Part shown: positions 12,790 through 62,100 of the stretch, in pieces
How positions within the stretch are numbered: position 1 is the first letter of the stretch
Layout: each line of letters starts with the position of its first letter
DNA from: Pseudanabaena sp. FACHB-1998
GTDB taxonomy: Bacteria > Cyanobacteriota > Cyanobacteriia > Pseudanabaenales > Pseudanabaenaceae
NCBI RefSeq assembly: GCF_014696355.1
Contig: NZ_JACJQA010000015.1
Span: forward strand, 1-64,000
Reading direction: 5' to 3'
DNA length: 64,000 bases
Made by a program: the position numbers and the translations under genes
Notes under the pieces: generated by a model
What the model was told of the DNA's origin: nothing
Database searches by the model: none
What the model saw: only the letters and a program-made list of their open reading frames with translations

Positions 12790-12842
12790 CTAAATAGGTA
12801 AGGATTGGCGGCGCTTAGCGCCGCCAATCCTTACCTATTTAG
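12790..12842. terminator. Bidirectional palindrome between rhomboid and dnaB
   Basis: Exact 26-base arms (12790-12815 and 12817-12842) have a GGCGGCGCTTAGCGCCGCC core. It lies between two convergent genes and would terminate both. Confidence 0.82.
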
Positions 12843-15501: not shown

Positions 15502-15628
15502 CTATAGCAATGCTCAAATCAAACCTCAAAAGCTAACGAAGACGCTTTGCTTCTTCGTTAGCTTTTGGGATTTGAGAGAGGACGAATCCTAGGGTCGCAC
15601 TCTCTCAAATCATTTAGGATTGCTATAG
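15502..15628. repeat. Palindromic element with CTATAGCAAT ends
   Basis: Terminal inverted repeats CTATAGCAAT (15502-15511) and ATTGCTATAG (15619-15628) enclose two nested hairpins. One is CAAAAGCTAACGAAG paired with CTTCGTTAGCTTTTG around GACGCTTTGCTT, and the other is a TTTGAGAGAG/CTCTCTCAAA pair. The end sequence is shared with family A elements at 17401, 26927, 29381 and 38621, so this is probably a relative. It lies between the divergent dnaB and site-2-protease-like genes. Confidence 0.7.
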
Positions 15629-17400: not shown

Positions 17401-17516
17401 TATAGCAAAGCAAGAATTAGCCAGCACAAACCAAAACCCAAAAAGCGAGTGGCGGCGCGAAGCGCCGCCACTCGCTTTTTGGGTTTTATGTCCTAAGCAA
17501 AACTTAAATTGCTATA
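17401..17516. repeat. Family A MITE-like element, copy 1
   Basis: The 116-bp element begins TATAGCAAAG and ends TTGCTATA. The middle is a perfect hairpin with arms AAACCCAAAAAGCGAGTGGC plus GGCGC, closed by GAA (centre GCGAAGC at about 17456). The outer arms are imperfect. The open frame that crosses it (17230-17496) is a repeat shadow. Confidence 0.75.
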
Positions 17517-18450: not shown

Positions 18451-19392
18451 ATGAGTAGAGCCAAATCTTCTTCCCCATCAGGGATTTCCACACAATCTAT
18501 TATTTGGGCAGCGATCGGATGGGCAACCTTAGCCTTAATGTTCTATCTTTTCCTTAGCGCCCCCACTGATGGACCTCATATCATCAAGCCTGAAGAATGC
18601 AATAAGGCGGTGAAAGACTTTGTCGCTCGCCCCAACTGGTATCGCTATGGAACCTATATTTTTCAGACGGTAGCGATCGCCTTCTCAGGAATCCTATGCT
18701 TGCGTAACTGGCGTAGCTCAAAAATTATTAGTGGACGCAATGTCTGGCTAGGCTTAGGGATCGGCATTATTTCTTGGGGTATAGGAAACTTGATATTTGG
18801 ATATCTAGATTTCCAATATCAAAGCGGGCTAATCACTGGTGGAGCTAAAGGAGCCAAAGATCTTGTCAATACCTTCCCATCGATCGCCGATATTTTCTTT
18901 ACGGCAACCTATGTATTTTTGTCGTGGGGGATGGCGATGTCTGTCATCGGCAAGCGGCTAAATCTTTATCCTAAGCAGTGGGGAATTGTTGGAGCGGTAG
19001 GCTTAGGCGGCATTATTCTGGCAGCCTATGTCACCTTTGGCGCAGGTGGTGGTTTTACCCTAGACACAGGCAAAATCCTCAACATTGTTTATGCTTTAGG
19101 GGATATTTGGTTGCTAATCGTTGCCACGATTCTATTACTTGCCTTTTGGGGCGGAAAGGCGGCTCAGTCTTGGCGGTTGCTTGGTAGTGCGGGTATTTCG
19201 ATGTTTATTAGTGACCTGTGGTTTAACTACAGCATTAACATCGGTGTAAATAAAATTTGTGAAGGTAAGCAATATCAAAGTGGTGAGCCTGCGGAGTTCT
19301 TCTGGATTCTTGCCTTTATTCTTTGGGGTATGGCCGCAGCCTTAGAGTTTGATTTATCTTCGCGCCCCTCAACGAGAGGTCGTCGCAGCTAA
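18451..19392 (+). CDS. Polytopic membrane protein of unknown function
   Basis: The 313-residue protein has about eight membrane segments, beginning at residue 16 (SIIWAAIGWATLALMFYLF). The following periplasmic loop contains one cysteine and the NWYRYG motif. The pattern of paired helices and the SIADIFFTATYVFLSWGMAM stretch recall membrane sensor modules found in front of GGDEF and histidine kinase domains, but no output domain is present here. Function is unknown. The last two codons and the stop are contained in the left arm of the following palindrome. Confidence 0.65.
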   Translation: MSRAKSSSPSGISTQSIIWAAIGWATLALMFYLFLSAPTDGPHIIKPEECNKAVKDFVARPNWYRYGTYIFQTVAIAFSGILCLRNWRSSKIISGRNVWLGLGIGIISWGIGNLIFGYLDFQYQSGLITGGAKGAKDLVNTFPSIADIFFTATYVFLSWGMAMSVIGKRLNLYPKQWGIVGAVGLGGIILAAYVTFGAGGGFTLDTGKILNIVYALGDIWLLIVATILLLAFWGGKAAQSWRLLGSAGISMFISDLWFNYSINIGVNKICEGKQYQSGEPAEFFWILAFILWGMAAALEFDLSSRPSTRGRRS

Positions 19393-19435
19393 AAGAAAAA
19401 AGCCTCGCAAAGCGAGGCTTTTTTCTTTTAGCTGC
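19385..19435. terminator. Palindromic terminator that includes the end of the membrane-protein gene
   Basis: Exact 24-base arms (19385-19408 and 19412-19435) close on GCAAAGC. The left arm includes the AGC and TAA codons ending the membrane-protein gene. It also lies at the 3' end of the convergent sugar transferase and can serve both. Confidence 0.85.
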
Positions 19436-26322: not shown

Positions 26323-26400
26323 TAAGGATTGAGGCGATCCTTTAGGGGCTGCCAATGCACAATGTAATTTAGACTATTGAATCTATATAATGAGATTTAT

Positions 26401-26844
26401 ATGAATAATGCAAAATCCTTATATGAAACCGACTTTAATCTTTGGTTGACGGAAACTGTAAATTCATTAAGAACAGGCGCGATCGCCAACTTAGACTTGG
26501 AAAATCTTGCCGAAGAAATTGAGGATATGGGAAACAGCCGCAAAGATGCTCTAGAAAGTAATTTAATTAGGGTTTTGCAACATTTACTCAAATGGAAATA
26601 TCAACCGCAAAAACGTACCAATAGTTGGAAAGCCTCAATTACTGAGCATTCTCTGCGATTAAATAAAGCTATAAAAAAAAGTCCTAGTCTTAAGCCTTAT
26701 TTTGAATCCGTCTTTGCTGAGTGTTACCAAGATGCCAGATTAATTACTGCTCAGGAAACGGGATTAGAACTTTCTGTTTTTCCAGATATTTGTCCCTTCG
26801 CACTAGCAGATATTTTAAATCCTCATTATCTACCTGAAGATTAA
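26401..26844 (+). CDS. DUF29 domain-containing protein
   Basis: The protein of about 147 residues has the full DUF29 pattern: LYETDFNLWLTETVNSLRTG, LDLENLAEEIEDMGNSRKDALESNLIRVLQHLLKWKYQP, and the ending with YQDARLITAQETGL. This family is abundant in cyanobacteria and is of unknown function. I use the ATG at 26401. A TTG at 26377 in the same frame adds eight residues without support. A family of this type often sits near mobile or addiction genes. Confidence 0.85.
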   Translation: MNNAKSLYETDFNLWLTETVNSLRTGAIANLDLENLAEEIEDMGNSRKDALESNLIRVLQHLLKWKYQPQKRTNSWKASITEHSLRLNKAIKKSPSLKPYFESVFAECYQDARLITAQETGLELSVFPDICPFALADILNPHYLPED

Positions 26845-26892
26845 TTAAAATAAATGCAAAGTTCTGTTACTGCAATTTCTATGATTGGGAGT

Positions 26893-26924
26893 TATAGACA
26901 AGGGGCTTAAGCCCCTTGTCTATA
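26893..26924. repeat. Perfect 32-base palindrome
   Basis: TATAGACAAGGGGCTT is followed directly by its reverse complement, with no loop. The outer TATAG/CTATA ends are the same as those of family A elements. Confidence 0.85.
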
Positions 26925-26926
26925 AA

Positions 26927-27014
26927 GCTATAGTCACCTTTGGACACCAAAACCAATAAGCGAGTGGCGGCGCTTCGCGCCGCCACTCGCTTATTGGTTT
27001 TCATACAGCTATAG
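26927..27014. repeat. Family A MITE-like element, copy 2 (short)
   Basis: AGCTATAG-type ends enclose a perfect hairpin with arms ACCAATAAGCGAGTGGCGGC, closed on GCTTCGC. Compared with the copy at 17401, two arm positions changed together on both sides, so pairing was kept. Confidence 0.75.
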
Positions 27015-27106
27015 ATGGTTTTAGTGGTACAAAATTGCTCGGTGCAGTCAATAATTAAGCAAGTAATAAACAAATTAAACCAAGTAACTTTAGGCGCATA
27101 AAATTT

Positions 27107-28515: not shown

Positions 28516-29385
28516 ATGCCTGAATTACCAGAAGTTGAGACGGTTCGGATTGGTTTAAATGAAAATACGTTAGGTTGGCAAATTGAAGGTGGTGAAATAT
28601 TGCTACCCCGTGCGATCGCCTATCCTGAAAATTCCCAAGCTTTTTTAGATTCGCTAATTGGGGCAGAGTTTATCGAATGGCAGCGACGGGGAAAATATTT
28701 AATTGCTAAGTTATCTCAAGGCAATCAATTAGGAGTGCATTTACGAATGACGGGGAGTTTGCTCTGGTGCGATCGCGATGAAACTTTGGGCAAGCATACA
28801 CGAGTACGACTTTTTTTAAAGGAAAAGGTCAAGGGGAAAAAGGAAAAAGGTTTAGGTCAAAGAGAATTGCGTTTTGATGATCAGCGTACCTTTGGCAAAA
28901 TGTGGTGGGTTCCCTCTGGACAACCGACAGAATCAGTGATTACGGGACTACAAAAACTAGGCTTAGAGCCTTTTGATGCGGCTTTTACTCCCGAACATTT
29001 AGCGACCCAATTAAGCCGTAGTGGTCGCCCTATTAAGACTGTCCTGCTCGATCAAGAAACTGTGGCAGGTATTGGCAATATTTATGCTGATGAGTCATTA
29101 TTTTTAGGGAAAATCCATCCCCAAAAAGCGGCGAATTCTCTTAACTCAGAACAGGTAAAAGCTTTACATCAAGGAATTATTAAATCCCTGAGTGATGGAA
29201 TTGCGAAAGGTGGCACAACGTTTAGCTCGTTTCAAAATGTCGCAGGGCTGAAGGGAAATTACATTGATACGGCTTGGGTATTTCGACGGACAGGTCAGCC
29301 TTGTAATGTATGTGGTACTAGTATTTCCAAAATTAAGCTCGGTGGGCGATCGACGCATTTTTGTGCTCAATGCCAAATTTTATAG
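28516..29385 (+). CDS. mutM: Formamidopyrimidine-DNA glycosylase
   Basis: MutM removes 8-oxoguanine and formamidopyrimidines from DNA and nicks the abasic site. The start is the diagnostic PELPEVETVR, with Pro2 as the nucleophile. LRMTGSLL, HTRVRLFL, TFGKMWWV, VAGIGNIYADESLF and a C-terminal zinc finger CNVC...CAQC follow. A Lys/Gly-rich run (KEKVKGKKEKGLGQ, around residue 101) is inserted in the loop after HTRVRLFL, where other MutM proteins have only a few residues. The TAG stop lies within the terminal repeat of a family A element. Confidence 0.95.
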   Translation: MPELPEVETVRIGLNENTLGWQIEGGEILLPRAIAYPENSQAFLDSLIGAEFIEWQRRGKYLIAKLSQGNQLGVHLRMTGSLLWCDRDETLGKHTRVRLFLKEKVKGKKEKGLGQRELRFDDQRTFGKMWWVPSGQPTESVITGLQKLGLEPFDAAFTPEHLATQLSRSGRPIKTVLLDQETVAGIGNIYADESLFLGKIHPQKAANSLNSEQVKALHQGIIKSLSDGIAKGGTTFSSFQNVAGLKGNYIDTAWVFRRTGQPCNVCGTSISKIKLGGRSTHFCAQCQIL

Positions 29386-29496
29386 CTGTTGCCATTCTTG
29401 TTAAGACACAAACCCAGAAAACGAGTTGCGGCGCGAAGCGCCGCAACTCGTTTTCTGGGTTTTGGGTTGTCCTGAGACAAGTGACTAAAGCTATTT
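29381..29496. repeat. Family A MITE-like element, copy 3
   Basis: It begins TATAGCTG (overlapping the mutM stop codon) and ends AAAGCTATT. The inner hairpin has arms ACCCAGAAAACGAGTTGCGG and complement, closing on GCGAAGC. The length of 116 bp equals that of copy 1. Confidence 0.72.
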
Positions 29497-33122: not shown

Positions 33123-33191
33123 TGTAGATGTATGACAATGCCATACATCTACAGGGCTAAAAAACATATAGAGGCGCATTGCGCCTCTATA
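33123..33191. repeat. Two small inverted repeats
   Basis: TGTAGATGTATG/CATACATCTACA (33123-33134 and 33142-33153) and TATAGAGGCGCA/TGCGCCTCTATA (33167 to 33191) lie upstream of the DUF3082 gene. The second has TATAG/CTATA ends like family A. Confidence 0.65.
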
Positions 33192-33465: not shown

Positions 33466-36354
33466 TTAAGTATGGCGCGGATATTCGGCTAAAACTTGCT
33501 TGAGATATTTGCCAGTGTAGGATTTCTTAACTTTGGCTACCTGTTCGGGTGTGCCTTCTGCAACCACTTCACCACCGCGATCGCCGCCTTCTGGCCCCAA
33601 ATCAATAATCCAATCAGCACAGCGAATCACATCAAGATTATGCTCAATCGTGATGATGCTATTACCCTTATCCACGAGGCGCTGCATTACATCTAGCAAT
33701 TTATGCACATCGTAAAAGCTTAAACCTGTGGTCGGCTCATCGATTAAATATAGGGTTTTGCCTGTGGCTCGTCGTGCTAATTCCGTGGCAAGTTTCACCC
33801 GTTGGGCTTCACCGCCTGAGAGGGTGGGAGCAGACTGACCGAGCCGCACATAGCCTAAGCCCACATCCACCAGCATTCCCAATTTAGTATGGGCAGAGGG
33901 AATATTCTCGAAGAAGTGCATCGCTTCTTCGATGGTCATATCGAGGACATCGGCGATCGTTTTTTCTTTGTACTTAACTTGTAACGTCTCGCGGTTATAT
34001 CTTGCACCTTTACAGACATCGCACTGCACATAGACATCGGGCAGAAAATTCATAGAAATGATATTTACGCCCTGACCCGAACAAGCTTCGCAACGTCCGC
34101 CTTTGACATTAAAGGAAAATTGTCCTGCTTTGTAGCCGCGAGTTTTCGCCGCCGTTGTCAGCGCGAAGGTTTCACGGATCACATCGAATAGCCCCGTATA
34201 GGTGGCAGGATTGGATCGGGGCGTGCGTCCGATGGGAGATTGATCGATAACAATAAATTTATCAAGGTGCTTTAGTCCTTTGACTTCCTCCATACCCTTA
34301 GGAGCTGGCACTTTGCGCGAAAAATTATGTTCGAGGGCATGGTGCAGCAGGTCATTAATTAAAGTGGATTTACCTGAGCCTGATACGCCTGTGATACAGA
34401 CCAATTCGCCAAGCGGAATCTTGACATTAATATTTTTAAGATTATTCAAATAAGCATTGCAAATTTCTAAATGCTTGCCATTGCCTTCGCGCCGTTCCGC
34501 AGGTGTATAAATTTGTTTTTGTTTGGAGAGATACGCACCTGTGAGAGAGTCGGGATGGGTCTCGATATCCTTAACGCTACCCTGTGCGACAACTCGCCCA
34601 CCATGCACGCCTGCTCCTGGCCCAATATCGACGAGATAATCAGCAGCCCGAATGGTTTCTTCGTCATGCTCGACTACGATTAAGGTATTACCGAGATCTC
34701 GCAGTTTGGTTAATGTGGCGAGTAAGCGAGAATTATCCCTTTGATGCAGCCCAATACTCGGTTCATCCAATACATAGAGAACGCCTGTTAATCCTGAACC
34801 GATCTGAGTAGCAAGGCGAATCCGTTGGGCTTCGCCACCAGAGAGCGACATAGTGGAACGATCAAGGGTTAGGTAATCTAAACCGACATCTAATAAAAAT
34901 TGCAATCTGGCTTCGATTTCTTGCAATACCCGATCGCCGATTTGTCTTGTGCGGGAATCGAGATCAAGATTTTTGAGACGATCTAAACAAGTGCCAAGGG
35001 GAGCCGATACAAACTCAATAATATTAAAGCCGCCAATGCGAACGGCGAGAGATTCGGGCTTGAGGCGCGTACCTTCACAGGTGGCGCAGGGTTGCTCGAT
35101 CAGATAATTCTCTAGCTTTTGGCGTTGCGATTCGCCCGCCTCTTTATATTGCTGTTCGAGAATGGCGATCGCCCCTTCATAGCGTTTGTAGTAGCCCTCA
35201 GCGCGATCGCGATAAAAGGAATCAGGCTTAATTAAAATCTTTTCCGTGGTGCCGTAGAGAATAATGTCAATCTGAGCTTGAGAGAGCTTTTCCCAAGGGG
35301 TATTAATTTCAAAACCTGCATATTCACCGACACTAGATAGGAGCGAGATGTAATAGGTATGGGTTTTATCCGCCCAAGGTGCGATCGCGGCATATACGGG
35401 CAGAGAGGGATCGGGAACAATCAATTCAGGATTAAAGGTTTTAATACTTCCCAATCCATGACAAGTAGGACAAGCGCCATAGGGAGAATTGAAGGAGAAC
35501 ATACGGGGTGATAGTTCTTCCATTACCGCGCCATGTTCAGGACAGGCAAAGTTTTCTGAGAAAGTTAGAATATTGTTTTCTTGCTTAGATTTCTTGCTCC
35601 CCTCGCCCTCTGGGAGAGGGGCTGGGGGTGAGGGCAAAATCTCCACCATCGCAATCCCTTCCGCACGTTTTAAACATGTGGCGAGAGAATCTGTTAGACG
35701 TTCTTGAATATCATCCTTGCGAACTAAGCGATCAACGACAATTTCAATATCATGGAGTTTATTTTTATCCAGTTCGATATTGTCGCTCAGTTCCCGTACT
35801 TCGCCATCAATGCGAACTCTGCCAAAACCTTCGGAAGCAAGACTGGCTAATAATTTTTTATGGGTTCCCTTTTTGCCCCGAATCACGGGCGCGAGTAATT
35901 GGAAGCGCGTGCGATCGCCTAATTCCATAATCGAATCAACCATGTGATCGATGGTTTGGGGTGCAATGTTGCGATCGCAGATCGGGCAGTGGGGCGAACC
36001 TGCGCGACCAAATAATAATCGCAAATAATCATAAATCTCGGTGACCGTGCCGACCGTTGAGCGTGGATTATGGGAAGTAGATTTCTGATCAATGGAAATC
36101 GCGGGACTTAAACCCTCGATGTAGTCCACATCAGGCTTATCGACTTGTCCTAAAAACTGCCGCGCATAGGCACTGAGCGATTCCACATAGCGGCGTTGAC
36201 CTTCGGCAAAAATCGTGTCAAAGGCGAGGGATGATTTGCCAGAGCCAGATACACCTGTAAACACGATCAGGCGATCGCGGGGAATCGTCAGGTCAACATT
36301 TTTGAGGTTGTGCTGTCTCGCACCTCTAACATGGATGTGGGTATGGTCTGGCAT
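33466..36354 (-). CDS. uvrA: Excinuclease ABC subunit A
   Basis: UvrA is the damage-sensing ATPase of nucleotide excision repair, a dimer that loads UvrB. The 962-residue protein has both ABC halves: GVSGSGKSSLAFDTIFAEGQRRY, then LSGGEAQRIRLA and VVEHD; and GVSGSGKSTLINDLL, LSGGEAQRVKLA and IEHN. The zinc modules CPIC, CPEHG...CPTC and CEAC...CDVC are present. Around residues 244-260 the segment LPSPPAPLPEGEGSKKS is not part of the family and comes from an intergenic-type repeat inserted in frame. The start is ATG at 36354 with the conserved IHVRGARQHNLKNV. Confidence 0.97.
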   Translation of the reverse strand: MPDHTHIHVRGARQHNLKNVDLTIPRDRLIVFTGVSGSGKSSLAFDTIFAEGQRRYVESLSAYARQFLGQVDKPDVDYIEGLSPAISIDQKSTSHNPRSTVGTVTEIYDYLRLLFGRAGSPHCPICDRNIAPQTIDHMVDSIMELGDRTRFQLLAPVIRGKKGTHKKLLASLASEGFGRVRIDGEVRELSDNIELDKNKLHDIEIVVDRLVRKDDIQERLTDSLATCLKRAEGIAMVEILPSPPAPLPEGEGSKKSKQENNILTFSENFACPEHGAVMEELSPRMFSFNSPYGACPTCHGLGSIKTFNPELIVPDPSLPVYAAIAPWADKTHTYYISLLSSVGEYAGFEINTPWEKLSQAQIDIILYGTTEKILIKPDSFYRDRAEGYYKRYEGAIAILEQQYKEAGESQRQKLENYLIEQPCATCEGTRLKPESLAVRIGGFNIIEFVSAPLGTCLDRLKNLDLDSRTRQIGDRVLQEIEARLQFLLDVGLDYLTLDRSTMSLSGGEAQRIRLATQIGSGLTGVLYVLDEPSIGLHQRDNSRLLATLTKLRDLGNTLIVVEHDEETIRAADYLVDIGPGAGVHGGRVVAQGSVKDIETHPDSLTGAYLSKQKQIYTPAERREGNGKHLEICNAYLNNLKNINVKIPLGELVCITGVSGSGKSTLINDLLHHALEHNFSRKVPAPKGMEEVKGLKHLDKFIVIDQSPIGRTPRSNPATYTGLFDVIRETFALTTAAKTRGYKAGQFSFNVKGGRCEACSGQGVNIISMNFLPDVYVQCDVCKGARYNRETLQVKYKEKTIADVLDMTIEEAMHFFENIPSAHTKLGMLVDVGLGYVRLGQSAPTLSGGEAQRVKLATELARRATGKTLYLIDEPTTGLSFYDVHKLLDVMQRLVDKGNSIITIEHNLDVIRCADWIIDLGPEGGDRGGEVVAEGTPEQVAKVKKSYTGKYLKQVLAEYPRHT
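35597..35635. repeat. REP-like repeat inserted in frame in uvrA
   Basis: CTCCCCTCGCCCTCTGGGAG and the following AGGGGCTGGGGGTGAGGG form a palindromic unit almost the same as that at 58413-58449, including the ATTTCTTG lead-in. It encodes the foreign PSPPAPLPEGEG peptide in UvrA. Confidence 0.85.
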
Positions 36355-38620: not shown

Positions 38621-38711
38621 TATAGCAAAGCGAGGGTTAGCCCGTACAACCCAAAACCCAAAAAGCGAGTTGCGGCGCGAAGCGCCGCAACTCGCTTTTT
38701 GGGTTTCTGGA
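38621..38711. repeat. Family A MITE-like element, copy 4, joined to a family B copy
   Basis: TATAGCAAAGCGAGGGTTAG at the left matches copy 1. The inner hairpin has arms AAACCCAAAAAGCGAGTTGC with GCGAAGC centre. The right end is replaced by a family B element starting near 38699. Confidence 0.7.
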
Positions 38712-56499: not shown

Positions 56500-58296
56500 A
56501 TGAACACCGCCAATCGGAACACCCTCTGGGCAAGCATAGTTGCCGAAGAACTCTATCGATCAGGAGTGCGGACAGTTTGCATTTCTCCCGGTTCACGCTC
56601 TACACCCCTTGTGATTGCCTTTGCGGAACTGCGCGATCGCTGTGATGACTTTCAGATATTGGTGCATATTGACGAGCGATCGAGTAGCTTCTTTGCCCTT
56701 GGAGTCGCCAAAGTCCAACAGGCTCCCGTCGCCCTGCTCTGCACATCAGGAACTGCCGCCGCCAACTATTATCCTGCAATTATTGAGGCGTACTATAGTC
56801 GGATTCCGCTTGTGGTGCTGACCGCCGATCGCCCACCCGAAATGCGTGACTGTGGCTCAGGACAGACCATCGATCAGATTAATATTTATGGAAAGCATGT
56901 TCGCTACTTCTTTGAAGTGGGAACCCCAGAAATTATTGGCTTCCGTCTGCGCTATTTGCGATCGCTAATTAGCCGCAGTGTCAGCATCGCCCTTGGCAAA
57001 GGTGAAACACCCGCAGGAGCAGTCCATCTTAACTTCCCCTTTGCCGATCCGATGCCGCCCATTCCCATTCCCAACGACATTCCCGAAGACTTAGCCCTGA
57101 GCAGTCCAGAGGCAATGCTCGGCAACCCGTCAGGTAACGCCTATAGTCAAATCTGGGCAGGAACGCGATCGCTAGATACCGACATCATCGCCACCATTGC
57201 CAATCAAATTATTAGCCATCCCAAGGGCGCGATCGTGGTCGGAGTCTATGACTCACCACCAGAATTTGTAGGAGCCGTACGAAGGCTAGCAAGGGCAACG
57301 GGCTATCCCTTATTAATTGAAGCCACAGGAGCGCATCGTCGCGATGAAATCGGACATTACGACAGCTTTTTGCGATCGTCAAATTTTAGTAAAACCCATG
57401 CTCCCAAAATCATGATTCGCTTCGGAGCCATGCCTACCTCCAAAAGCTATCTGCTTTGGCTAGAGCGTCACATCGGCTGTCAGCAAATCATCGTCGGCAG
57501 CATCAATAGCGATCCTACGCATGGGCTGACACAGGCGCTCAATGTCCATCCTGTCAACTTCTGTGAGCAGTTAGCCAATTATTTAGAAAATTATGCTCAA
57601 CCCGTTTGGCAAGATAAACAATGGCGCTTAGATTTTGAATTAGCAGAAAGCATTGCTGAACATACGATTGAAGAAGCGATCGACGAAATAGACGAACTTT
57701 TCGATGGCAAGGTTTATGCAGAGCTAGCAGAAATTTTGCCAGAGGATAGTTATATCTTTGTGGCAAGCAGTACCCCCATCCGCGATTTAGATACCTTCTT
57801 CCATAGCGACCACGCGATTACCGTATTAGCAAATCGGGGCGCAAATGGCATTGATGGCACGCTCTCCAGCGCTCTCGGTGCAGCTTGGGGATGCGATCGC
57901 CCGATGGTTCTTATCTGTGGTGACTTAGCCTTCTATCACGACTTAAATGGATTACTAGCCGCCAAAAAATACCAGATTTCCCTCACTGTCATCCTCTTAA
58001 ATAACGATGGTGGTGGCATTTTTAATCTATTACCAATTTCCAAATTTGAGCATACCTTTGAGGAATTCTTCGGCACAGCGCATGGTCTAAACTTTGCGCC
58101 TCTAGTCACCGCCTACGACTGCGAACATATTCTCATTCAAGATTGGGAGCATTTTGAAAATGCCGTGATTGATTCGCTCTTTAGCAAAGGTACACAAGTA
58201 CTAGAGATCAAAAGCGATCGCCTACGCAATAAGGAACTCCATTTTGCGATCTGGAATAAAGTCATTGAAAACTGCGATCGGAATTTTCAACTATAG
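56500..58296 (+). CDS. menD: 2-succinyl-5-enolpyruvyl-6-hydroxy-3-cyclohexene-1-carboxylate synthase
   Basis: MenD joins isochorismate and 2-oxoglutarate using thiamine diphosphate. In cyanobacteria the pathway leads to phylloquinone, the electron carrier of photosystem I. The 598-residue protein has GVRTVCISPGSRSTPL, the catalytic HIDERSSSFFALG, TSGTAAANYYPAIIEA, and the ThDP-binding region GNRGANGIDGTLSSALG, CGDLAFYHDLNGL and LNNDGGGIFNLLP. Complete. Single gene; its stop lies in the following palindrome. Confidence 0.97.
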   Translation: MNTANRNTLWASIVAEELYRSGVRTVCISPGSRSTPLVIAFAELRDRCDDFQILVHIDERSSSFFALGVAKVQQAPVALLCTSGTAAANYYPAIIEAYYSRIPLVVLTADRPPEMRDCGSGQTIDQINIYGKHVRYFFEVGTPEIIGFRLRYLRSLISRSVSIALGKGETPAGAVHLNFPFADPMPPIPIPNDIPEDLALSSPEAMLGNPSGNAYSQIWAGTRSLDTDIIATIANQIISHPKGAIVVGVYDSPPEFVGAVRRLARATGYPLLIEATGAHRRDEIGHYDSFLRSSNFSKTHAPKIMIRFGAMPTSKSYLLWLERHIGCQQIIVGSINSDPTHGLTQALNVHPVNFCEQLANYLENYAQPVWQDKQWRLDFELAESIAEHTIEEAIDEIDELFDGKVYAELAEILPEDSYIFVASSTPIRDLDTFFHSDHAITVLANRGANGIDGTLSSALGAAWGCDRPMVLICGDLAFYHDLNGLLAAKKYQISLTVILLNNDGGGIFNLLPISKFEHTFEEFFGTAHGLNFAPLVTAYDCEHILIQDWEHFENAVIDSLFSKGTQVLEIKSDRLRNKELHFAIWNKVIENCDRNFQL

Positions 58297-58336
58297 CGAT
58301 TTTCATTTTGCCTACGGCAAAATGAAAATCGCTATA
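58292..58336 (+). terminator. Palindrome containing the end of menD
   Basis: Exact 21-base arms (58292-58312 and 58316-58336) around a TAC loop. The left arm includes the TAG stop. Confidence 0.83.
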
Positions 58337-58505: not shown

Positions 58506-59087
58506 ATGGTACTTGCCACAACTAAACGCTACACCGTTGATGAATATCTCGAACTAGAAGAAAAAGCCTTAGTTAAAAGTGAATTTGTCGATGGAGAGAT
58601 TATTCCGATGGCAGGCGCAACCGCAAATCATAATATCTTAACGGCTAAATTTCTGGCTCGAATTTTCTTGGCTTTGGAAGACTTAGATTTTGCTGTTTTT
58701 ATGAGTGATATGCGTCTGTGGATGCCAGATCTCAATCGCTATACCTATCCTGATGTTTTAGTGGTTAAGGGACAGCCGATTTTTACTGATCAGAAAAAAA
58801 CAGGCGTGACAAATCCTTGCGTAATTGTCGAAATTCTCTCTAGTTCCACTCAGGAATACGATCGCACCAGTAAATTTAAGTTATATCGTTCTATCCCTAG
58901 CTTTAAAGAATATATTTTGATTTATCAAGATAGTTATTGTGTAGAGAAATATACTAAACAAGATAGCGGACAAGATAAGGGGAAATGGATATTAACTGAA
59001 TTTCTTGGTGAAGATGCAGTTCTCAAATTAGATGCGATTGATTTTGAAATCAGTCTCAAAGATTTGTATAGAAAAGTAACTTTCTAA
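58506..59087 (+). CDS. Uma2 family (DUF820) protein
   Basis: The 193-residue protein is closely similar to the one at 25057: YTVDEYLELEEKALVKSEFVDGEIIPMAGATANHN, YPDVLVVKGQPI, VIVEILSSSTQEYDRTSKFKLYRSIPSFKEYILI. It is a predicted PD-(D/E)xK-fold protein without known function. Single gene, ending in a palindrome that includes part of its stop codon. Confidence 0.9.
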   Translation: MVLATTKRYTVDEYLELEEKALVKSEFVDGEIIPMAGATANHNILTAKFLARIFLALEDLDFAVFMSDMRLWMPDLNRYTYPDVLVVKGQPIFTDQKKTGVTNPCVIVEILSSSTQEYDRTSKFKLYRSIPSFKEYILIYQDSYCVEKYTKQDSGQDKGKWILTEFLGEDAVLKLDAIDFEISLKDLYRKVTF

Positions 59088-59140
59088 AACCAAATAAGAG
59101 AAGGGCGACACGAAGTGTCGCCCTTCTCTTATTTGGTTTT
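59086..59140. terminator. Palindrome shared by convergent Uma2 and CHAT genes
   Basis: Exact 26-base arms (59086-59111 and 59115-59140) around GAA. Each arm overlaps a stop codon: the Uma2 TAA on the left and the CHAT gene's TAA on the right. Confidence 0.85.
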
Positions 59141-62100
59141 ATAGCCAATTGCCAATTAGGATAAAAGATGACCAGAAGTAAGGATGTTTAATATCAACTT
59201 CACCAGCAAAAACTTGAGAAAGAGGAACAGTGGGTAACTTAGGAAGCCCAAAGATTTTGCCATCCTTGATCGTGACCTTGCCTTGCAAAATTTCAATTTG
59301 AGAACGCTGAAGGGCGATCGCCTTAGTAATGTTTTCAGGAAAACTATTATAAAACTGAATCATCAAAGGGGCAGTACCCGTATCCGAGACTTCCCAGAGT
59401 GAAGCTAACACACTTTTTGCACCCGAACTCACGGACAAACCGCCCAAGCCGAGATTCTGCCCGACCGCAGTTTGGCAAGCACTGAGAGTAAGCATCTCAA
59501 TCAAGGGACTATCAAAGCGCAAACTCGGAATGCGGTCTATGGATAGCCGCTCGTTCCAGAACTGGATAAAAGCACCTTGAGCTTCGTTACTCAAAAACTT
59601 GGCATGGGTGGCAAGGTGTAAAACCGCAAAATTACCCTGCCGTCTTTTCTCTTGGAGATTTCTGATCGTGAAATCTTGATCAAGATAAGAATTACCATTC
59701 AGTACCTGAGAGCTTATCGTACTGACCTCAACCTTAACGGAAGGCAAAGGCGAAAAACCTTGGACAGACTCAGTTAAGCCCATTGCTAGTACATTGTTAA
59801 GACGGCGATCGCGTGTTTCTAGACGAGTAACCCGTAAATAAGGAAGATTAGCTAAGGCATATTTCTCAATTAAGAACTGCTTGCCATCATGGAGAGCCGC
59901 AATGGGAATGACCCGCAAGCCGCCATCCATGACAAATACTAAAGTTGGCGGTAACTTCTCTTGAGGTGCTTCGGCATTACTGGGAACAAGTTTATCACTG
60001 ACATTAGGTTTAGCATTTTGCTTAGAATTAAGCTGTGTATCAGGTTTCGCATTGCTATTGATGGTTGCCAAGCGATCGCTGTAGGGGCGAACTAACCAGT
60101 CATAGAGTTTTTGGGATTGCTCGAGATAGTCTTGTGAGCCAACATCGCGGATATTATTCGCAAAGTCTTGGAGTACAGGATTAATCGCGCTTTCTTTTGC
60201 CGCATTTACAAACTCACGGAAGGGCTTGCCCTTGCCCTTAGGTGGAATGATGAGTAGCTCTAGGCGATCGCGTAAAATGATTGGATAAACTACCGTAGTC
60301 ACACTACCAGAGCGATTAGAAATATCGTCTAGCTCTACTTGAATCTGTTCCAGATTTTTGACTTGGAAGGTCAAGGTTTCGCCCAAATAATTCTCAAACT
60401 CAGAGATTTTACCTTTCTCCATCTCATTAAGTGCATCTTCAAAGCGACCTAGGGCAAGATATTCTCCAGCAGAACGCTTAGCAATGTCATTGATATCTAC
60501 CGATGGAGGTCTTTTACCTGAAATTACGGGAGGAGTGGAAGTAATAATGATGGGGTTGATAAATGTGCCAGTTGAAGTTGATGACGTAGAAGACGTAGAT
60601 GGAGAAAGAGTCTCAGAAGAAGAGATAGGAACAGAAGGAAAAAGAGTCTCAGTAGGAGGGATAGGAATAGTAGGAGGGATAGGAATAGGAGGTGGAATAA
60701 ATATTCCTCCCCCGGGATTAATAGAGACATTGCCCTGAGTAAAGAATCCTACACCATTGGGAATGCCTTGAAAGCTTAATATAGTAGAGCCGCCTGCAAT
60801 AATTGTCCCTAAAGTTCCATTAGTAGTGGCACTACCGACTAAAAATGTATTGAGGTCAAAGGGAGAAGTAATGCCATGCTGAATTGAAACAGTTCCTGCT
60901 CCATTGGTACAGATAGTTGCGCCAACGCAAGGATCACCTGTTGCAAAGGTAACAACACCCGTTCCCAAGACATTGCCGCCCGTAGAGACGATATTAATGT
61001 TGCCACCAGTGCCGCCTATGGTGGTGTTTCCTGTGGAGTTAATGCTTGCAAATGTGACGTTACCGATCGGGTCAAGGATTACATCACCACCATTACCAAA
61101 GCTACTGCTTGTATTAACTTTTCCTACATCGATCTGAGTAAGCGCATCTACGATGACTTTACCAGCAGCACCAGTAGCTGAAGTGGTCAGATTTCCTGTG
61201 ACAGAAACTGCTCCTGTTCGGCTAGTAAGTGAAATTAGTCCGCCATTGGAGATATTTGAACTTGTATTGATGTCGCCGAAAACCGCGATCGCATCTCTAG
61301 CTAAAAGGGTCGAACTACCCGAAATATTGCCAGTAGCTTCTATACTTCCTGTAGTAATCGTCCCTAATGGACTACCGAGAGATATATTACCGCCATCTCC
61401 TATTTGAGAACTAGTACCGATCGCTCCCGATCGCGTGTTAATGGAGCCAGTAGTACTAGTGAGGCTAATCAAACCTCCATTTCCACTAGCACTAAATACA
61501 CCTGTGATTAGACTATAGATAGAAGGAACCCCAGCAATTGATACCACTCCTGTTGAGGTGATGTTGCCATTAGCTTTAATGTCAATCACACCGCCATTAC
61601 CATCATTCCCCGCCGTTGTCGTGCCTTGGCGTGTGCTAATTGCGGTGAATGTGATTGCGCCTGTGTCACTGGTGAGGAATATCGATCCCGCATTGCCACC
61701 TTCTATGCTTTGGTTGGGAGCGTTAATTGCTCCTGCTAAAATATCTTTTGCGGCTTGAATATTTACAATGCCGCCATTTCCCAGTTGGGTAGATAATACG
61801 CCTCCTTGAATTGCTCCCAGTCTGGTATCCACGATTCCAGTTGTACTTTTGATGGTGAGGTTTGATAGATCTCCTGTTGCAAAAACTGTTCCTGTAATGA
61901 TGTCTTGCGGGGCTGTGAGGGTAACGTTTGTGTTTTTGCCAACACTAGATACAGCCTCAAGGCTAGTATTCAGACTACCAGTTTTACTCTCTATCGTAAT
62001 GTTGCCATTATTGCCTGATGCAAATACTCCTCGCGTGCTGATGTTCCCGCTTGCAAGTAGATTGATTGTGCCGCCAGTGCCAGTGCTAAGGGTAGTGGTG

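Follow-up and report, generated by a model that had tools for sequence, protein, structure and literature searches.

Family A elements in the window

The window, by which we mean the whole analysed stretch of 64,000 nucleotides from Pseudanabaena sp. FACHB-1998, carries at positions 17401-17516 an element whose ends, TATAGC and GCTATA, flank a perfect 26-bp hairpin with a GAA loop. The 116-bp element with such ends that had been proposed here by the original prediction was borne out, and it recurs in the genome far beyond chance. However, family A within the window is not one family, but is made up of the A1 subfamily, the A2 subfamily and a third subfamily with ends of its own:

17401..17516, plus strand: complete A1 element, probable IS630-type MITE, 116 bp
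17401..17428, plus strand: A1 left terminal repeat, its consensus matching the IS630 end of L014 at 16 of 22 positions beyond TATAGC
17433..17487, no strand assigned: perfect hairpin core with 26-bp arms and loop GAA, terminator-like on both strands
17489..17516, minus strand: A1 right terminal repeat, with TTAGGAC at positions 21-27 from its end
38621..38707, plus strand: A1 copy with the right end lost, perfect 25-bp arms and loop GAA
29381..29495, minus strand: A2 copy, its other border eroded to GCTATT
26929..27013, no strand assigned: shortened A2-like copy, loop TTC on the plus strand
15503..15627, plus strand: third-subfamily copy with its own ends, the right end resembling that of IS630 L018
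26892..26925, no strand assigned: palindrome with TATAG ends, outside the family
33167..33191, no strand assigned: short palindrome with TATAG ends, outside the family

The copies originally named at 17401, 26927, 29381 and 38621 do belong to the family, although only that at 17401 is complete and A1 and A2 copies had been mixed in the list. From the relatives named alongside them, the copy at 15503 was retained as the third subfamily, whereas those at 26893 and 33167 proved to be palindromes and nothing more: by eye, 26892-26925 and 33167-33191 have nothing but the TATAG ends in common with the family. A search of the window against Rfam at gathering thresholds returned only two tRNAs and a 5S rRNA, with no family fitting the element.

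Copies of the family can lie close to gene ends. The TATAGC end of the A2 copy at 29381-29495 (29381-29386) supplies the TAG stop codon of a Fpg/MutM-like gene (28516-29385), and a crude rule places nine gene ends in the neighbourhood of other copies within 0-3 nt of the element. A region of ~780 bp (26324-27106) comprises a DUF29 gene (26377-26844), the palindrome and the shortened A2 copy; in the 5 relatives used for comparison, the aligned blocks of the genes bordering this region are separated by ~46-50 bp.

Copy number and distribution

A DNA search with the 17401 element against its own genome (4.78 Mb in 64 contigs), for which 40 out of 504 initial candidates received a score, placed the element at 40 or more positions with E ≤ 4.4e-40. 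Searching with the ends alone, the A1 right end was found at 84 places in this genome when allowing up to 3 mismatches and the A2 right end at 71 places, with 0 places found by the reversed-pattern control in both cases. The A1 right end was also present in 23 of the 26 genomes of the genus, with a maximum of 182 places per genome and 0 control matches in each, and was absent by this pattern search from 3 of the 26. The element was matched in 12/12 relatives from the same genus compared with 0/7 genomes from other genera, whilst the exact 35-base core occurred in 12 stretches assigned to Pseudanabaena, Phormidium tenue or Oscillatoriales. Plasmid matches came from 8 records, all 8 from Pseudanabaena, and in 3 of these the match extends over 80% or more of the query; no match was obtained among 50,697 phage records. 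None of 48 A1 copies examined lies inside a long open frame spanning the element. Family A elements are hence short, non-coding and dispersed in many copies, as is characteristic of MITEs.

Terminal repeats and insertion at TA

The ends of the A1 and A2 elements each resemble those of an IS630 transposon in the same genome, and it is a different transposon for each: beyond TATAGC, the two A1 ends agree with the IS at L014 in 16 and 15 of 22 positions, and the two A2 ends agree with the IS at L009 likewise in 16 and 15 of 22. A1 and A2 thus share their terminal inverted repeats with IS630 elements. For the 15503 copy, compared with the IS at L018, the right end matches in 17/22 positions and the left end in just 10/22, so that the third subfamily resembles IS630 at the right end alone. 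Comparison of the subfamily ends with IS ends of other lineages gave at most 11/22. The motif TTAGGAC is found at positions 21-27 in the A1 right end, in both A2 ends and in the IS ends of the L014 and L009/L012 kinds; neither end of the 15503 copy has it at these positions, nor do the left end of A1 and the IS at L010 and L018.

The own genome contains 11 DDE_3 (IS630) matches, each with a GCTATA end close downstream, two of the matches sharing one such end. IS630 elements with both ends present measure 1038 bp (L010) and 953 bp (L012), the latter being of the A2 kind and having an interrupted open frame. The A1-like IS630 copies of this genome (L014, L015, L016 and L019) sit at contig ends, and the genome G027 has an element related to the A1 partner that is 954 bp long and has both ends (L073). 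Judging from the matching ends, these IS630 transposases presumably move the family A elements.

A further palindrome in the window, at 58292-58336, is perfect, has TATAGCGATTTTCA ends and matches an IS630 end in G023 (L080) at 13/22 positions; it looks like a further MITE, in this case one consisting of the hairpin only. One A1 copy (L126) is inserted at the loop TA of a hairpin similar to 58292-58336.

The TA at the element ends had led to the suggestion of insertion at TA sites, to be examined using empty sites in relatives. Orthologous stretches were compared for the 17401 locus (8 relatives), the 26927 locus (5 relatives) and the 38621 locus (6 relatives) and contained no complete family A element, with a weak, hairpin-like A2 match in the stretch from G029 (41 bp, 78%, E=1.7e-4); the left side of the G012 stretch for the 17401 locus is perhaps not orthologous. 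Since the sites in relatives are too diverged to place the borders of an insertion, evidence for the TA came instead from hairpins of the own genome into which copies had inserted. Amongst 65 A1 copies analysed, 4 (L023, L040, L044 and L108) are inserted in an arm of a hairpin that is older than the copy, and in these 4 the other arm serves as the empty site: here the flanks are joined by one TA, with 1 or 2 mismatches over 20 bases. In L023, one of the two TAs is now CA. Ten other junction strings were found in 0/65 A1 copies, and random shuffling of the right flanks gave 0.08 cases per shuffle. For A2, 19 of 20 loci drawn from the 71 A2 places were analysed (1 was skipped at a contig edge), and one of the 19 (L213) displays the same kind of internal empty site with no mismatch. 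A1 and A2 therefore insert at TA and duplicate it; together with the end matches of A1 and A2, the TA insertion also supports the proposal that these are IS630-type MITEs.

This result bears on a further candidate, namely that a TnpA-REP (Y1) transposase moves the hairpins, which would then be REP-like elements. They are indeed dispersed, short hairpins and the genome encodes two Y1 transposase genes. Y1 single-strand transposition (IS200/IS605), however, makes no TA duplication, and family A combines IS630-like ends with such a duplication, unlike the products of Y1 transposition without target duplication that define the REP/RAYT class. We hence regard a REP-like origin as very improbable.

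Placement and terminator-like form of the hairpins

Perfect hairpins are not restricted to family A: the window contains 28 perfect palindromes with arms of at least 14 bp, compared with 0 in three Markov controls. None of the 28 lies inside a listed ORF, and 15/28 fall in the interval from 10 nt upstream to 50 nt downstream of a stop codon. Four perfect hairpins with 24-27 bp arms are placed between convergent ORFs (2442-2494, 12790-12842, 19385-19435 and 59085-59141), where they nearly touch or overlap both stop codons. A 45-bp sequence of the CCCTCGCCCTCTGGGAGAGGGG kind (35592-35636) forms part of a 962-aa ORF and, among the matches listed, recurs in many genomes of the genus.

The family A element folds far better than shuffled sequences, both as DNA and as RNA. 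Terminator-like sites were predicted for each of the two strands at 17437-17483, 26953-26997 and 29413-29459, and the 33 such sites called in 15 kb, compared with 14.7 ± 3.6 in shuffles, include many overlapping calls on the same hairpins. A GC-rich stem with a T-rich tail behind it gives these hairpins the form of an intrinsic terminator. Using a crude open-frame rule on 48 A1 copies, 47 flanks end a gene towards the element and 28 begin a gene away from it. A role as a terminator or as an mRNA end is plausible given this form and placement.

Paired changes in the arms

In order to count changes in the hairpin arms, we used the 55 of 84 A1 copies that are ungapped at 116 bp, which provide 1430 pair cells. 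The outer 61 positions of these 55 copies differ from the consensus by 4.5%. We counted 46 paired double changes, which fall into 17 kinds, across the 26 stem pairs, with ~1 expected from independent change at the outer rate, and 30 one-sided changes (pair-breaking or wobble) against ~122 expected, whilst unpaired double changes number 0. Shared ancestry inflates the cell count, yet 9 of the 17 kinds of double change occur in one copy only. The earlier description of arm bases that differ in pairs is confirmed by these numbers, with pairing mostly kept; what had gone unnoticed in that description of the hairpin is that the loop flips, as set out below. Considering all 84 A1 copies, 46 are fully matched in 24 pairs. 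Arms without mismatch are present in 7/19 A2 copies and, in relatives, in 14/20 copies from G011, 8/11 from G004 and 0/10 from G010.

A conventional account of such a pattern is that selection keeps the pairing, for terminator function or RNA stability, and that each compensatory change represents two separate point mutations. Points in its favour are that the stems resemble terminators, T-rich tails included, whichever strand is read, and that the window palindromes keep out of the listed ORFs and often lie near stop codons. Selection nevertheless leaves unexplained the replacement of a whole loop by its exact reverse complement between unchanged arms, and it fits poorly with how few arm changes are seen between relatives (both described below). 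As the cause of the paired changes we therefore judge selection to be unlikely, and prefer a mutational process acting at the hairpin.

Loop state among copies

Reading the A1 loops from the right end, 36/84 copies in the own genome carry GAA and 37/84 its reverse complement TTC, the remaining 11/84 having another or unreadable loop and standing outside these counts. The A2 copies show 8/19 GAA and 10/19 TTC. Two copies, L028 and L045, differ solely in the loop. When the loop was combined with each variable site in turn, all four combinations were present for 25/28 sites, as against 138/378 ordinary site pairs. A tree of 53 copies that included the left arm required at least 12 loop changes, compared with 17.8 ± 2.0 when the labels were shuffled, and 0/200 shuffles were as low; in the tree built from the outer positions alone there were 15 loop changes, and 24/200 shuffles were as low. 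A distance test for inheritance of the loop state revealed none. The tree and shuffle counts indicate that the loops change repeatedly, yet that their state persists for some time by descent; complete absence of inheritance is rejected.

The loops of relatives are less evenly divided: G011 has 16 GAA and 2 TTC of 20 copies, G004 has 6 GAA and 3 TTC of 11, and G010, in which the arms are imperfect, has 6 GGA and 2 TCC (reverse complements of each other) of 10. The ratio thus departs from 50:50 in G011 and G010, with the copies from relatives having been chosen from the best matches, not at random, and 1 of the 41 rows (L186) having taken another, degenerate element.

An exchange between copies could generate the same mixture of loops: copies that pair in inverted orientation might swap loops and arms by gene conversion or by crossing over, and this is the main rival to template switching. 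In L098 and L118, an A2 end on one side of the hairpin is combined with the right end of A1 on the other, which shows that exchange across the core happens; in addition, stem site 51 changes repeatedly on the tree, with 8 changes compared with 14.4 ± 1.1 for shuffled labels.

In-place loop inversion between two relatives

The relatives G024 and G025 could be aligned over 270 kb with 1.18% mismatches. We counted perfect palindromes with arms of at least 10 bp and loops of 3-8 nt, requiring the ortholog to be supported by both flanks; palindromes that lacked such an ortholog (8/124 in G024 and 23/144 in G025) were left out. The in-place test was run first on 38 palindromes with arms of at least 12 bp, later enlarged, and then run in both directions. 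Starting from G024, the 116 orthologous hairpins consist of 35 with the loop exactly inverted in G025, 77 with the loop kept and 4 otherwise changed; starting from G025, 38/121 loops are inverted and 6 are otherwise changed in loop or length. Loop inversion is hence the commonest change at the orthologous hairpins of this pair. The arms are identical in 30/32 inverted hairpins of equal length, and arm pairs seldom change: 2 double and 5 one-sided changes in 1999 pairs from G024 to G025, and 2 double and 13 one-sided changes in 2122 pairs in the opposite direction. Hairpins in these two relatives therefore invert their loops in place. The inverted hairpins include none from a complete family A element; one of them, at L232:15300, has an A2-like core with no complete element surrounding it. 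Using a two-state model, we obtained ~0.46 flips per hairpin per 0.0118 substitutions per site, a ratio of ~40.

The 35 inverted loops (in the stretches L222-L258) have a length of 3 in 27 cases, 5 in 7 cases and 4 in 1 case, and none is 6-8 long. As a comparison, E. coli MG1655 and IAI1 (184 kb, 1.14%) have 0/14 inverted loops at arms of at least 10 bp and 0/40 at arms of at least 8 bp, with 2/16 hairpins left out for want of an ortholog by both flanks. Fisher tests of G024/G025 against E. coli gave p=0.012 for all arms and 0.054 for arms of 10-14, although this control is weak because a loop length of 3 or 5, which 34/35 inverted loops have, is found in only 3/16 of the E. coli hairpins.

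With respect to inverted exchange, 25/35 inverted hairpins are without a second copy of their inner arm (up to 14 nt) within 302 kb of G024, and a second copy is no more frequent for the inverted hairpins (10/35) than for the remaining ones (34/89). On balance, we think that exchange between inverted copies probably does not account for the loop inversions and paired changes, while ranking it slightly ahead of selection.

Loop inversions could also be artefacts of assembly at palindromes. Where the arms are longer than the words used by an assembler, the orientation of the loop can be lost; G024 is a draft of ~160 contigs, and the inverted share does rise with arm length, from 2/17 at arms of 10-11 and 10/43 at 10-14 to 16/38 at arms of at least 20. 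Such an origin does not sit well with the short hairpins, given that 10/43 are inverted even at arms of 10-14 and that 11/35 inverted hairpins are no longer than 33 nt in total. Furthermore, both loops are found amongst 15 copies of the own genome in which a mismatch lies within 12 bases of the loop (10 TTC and 5 GAA), and G010 contains both GGA and its reverse complement TCC. We accordingly take an assembly artefact to be distinctly unlikely as the whole cause, although the rise with arm length would fit a partial contribution.

Proposed mechanism

Taken as a whole, the analysis leads us to favour with good confidence the reading that family A consists of IS630/Tc1-type MITEs with hairpin cores that change by template switching, a terminator role being possible. 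In this reading, the elements would be non-autonomous members of the IS630/Tc1 type, with IS630 transposases of the genus recognising their ends and inserting them at TA with duplication of the TA, whilst the middle of the element would be a hairpin like the perfect ones that stand alone between genes in this genus. During replication, the new strand would switch template to the opposite arm and then return. A switch limited to the arm would copy a mutation to its partner base, so that both bases of the pair change together; a switch passing through the tip would invert the loop (GAA to TTC) and leave the arms untouched. We infer template switching as the cause of both the loop inversions and the paired changes. 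Speaking against this reading are the partial inheritance of the loop state, the departure from a 50:50 loop ratio in relatives, the copies with mismatched arms, the larger inverted share at longer arms, which assembly error would likewise produce, and the weakness of the E. coli comparison. The hairpin itself, considering only its form and place, may act as a two-way transcription terminator or as an mRNA end.

The wider statement, that many short, perfect hairpins in Pseudanabaena genomes flip their loops in place at ~40 times the per-site substitution rate, that the replication process responsible keeps their arms matched too and that family A MITEs spread such hairpins at TA, appears to us somewhat better founded than not. 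Loss of SbcCD was considered as a simple cause of stable hairpins and set aside: SbcD was found in 26/26 genomes, so that absence of this nuclease subunit is not the cause.

The combination of many marked copies with orthologs from close strains makes template switching measurable in a bacterium, and does so apart from selection on RNA structure. Covariation of paired bases, which is usually read as structural selection, could stem from a mutational process, and hairpins of this kind lend themselves to testing how hairpin DNA is copied in the cell.

Comparison with known systems

In the open-licence literature, which was the scope of our search, we found no description of these elements and no bacterial loop inversion at such a rate. 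Family A adds one more MITE family to a type already known, and it is the hairpin cores that form the interesting part.

The nearest element in kind, going by the portion of PMC2229807 that deals with it, is RUP of Streptococcus pneumoniae, which is 107 bp long, has 108 copies, is intergenic, carries ends like those of IS630-Spn1 and targets TA. It is similar to family A in size, intergenic site, IS630 ends and TA, but has another sequence and another host, and that account of RUP describes no flipping hairpin core. The Correia/NEMIS elements of Neisseria, as outlined in the same portion of PMC2229807, are short, have TA termini, give stable stem-loop transcripts and are present in many copies; they are like family A in being short, in having TA at their termini and in their many copies, and differ in their 24-bp terminal repeats and host. 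The SPRITE repeat of S. pneumoniae, which an excerpt of PMC10969869 describes as having a form like that of a rho-independent terminator, is comparable to family A in this terminator-like form.

Like family A, several other MITEs occur in cyanobacteria, including Nezha (as cited in an excerpt of PMC10969869), those of Anabaena sp. 90 and that of Microcystis. The Anabaena sp. 90 MITEs, none of which, according to the relevant part of PMC3542288, evidently matches the ends of an IS in its genome, and the Microcystis MITE, which has ISL3-type ends and 8-nt repeats according to the corresponding part of PMC11448079, differ in this respect from the IS630-ended family A.

For the hairpins themselves, the closest precedents come from other genetic systems. 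According to the sections of PMC8794818 on rRNA hairpins, one template switch at a hairpin can explain compensatory change or loop inversion; there, compensatory change with loop inversion is given as extremely rare, whereas inversion is the commonest change at the orthologous hairpins analysed here. In chloroplasts, hairpins undergo recurrent inversions, more so at stable hairpins, and the minute inversions at stem-loops correlate with hairpin stability (PMC3123225, in its passages on this topic, citing Kelchner and Wendel 1996). The loop inversions described here parallel these minute inversions and are recurrent as they are, with the difference that those concern plant plastids and ours occur at many loci of a cyanobacterial genome.
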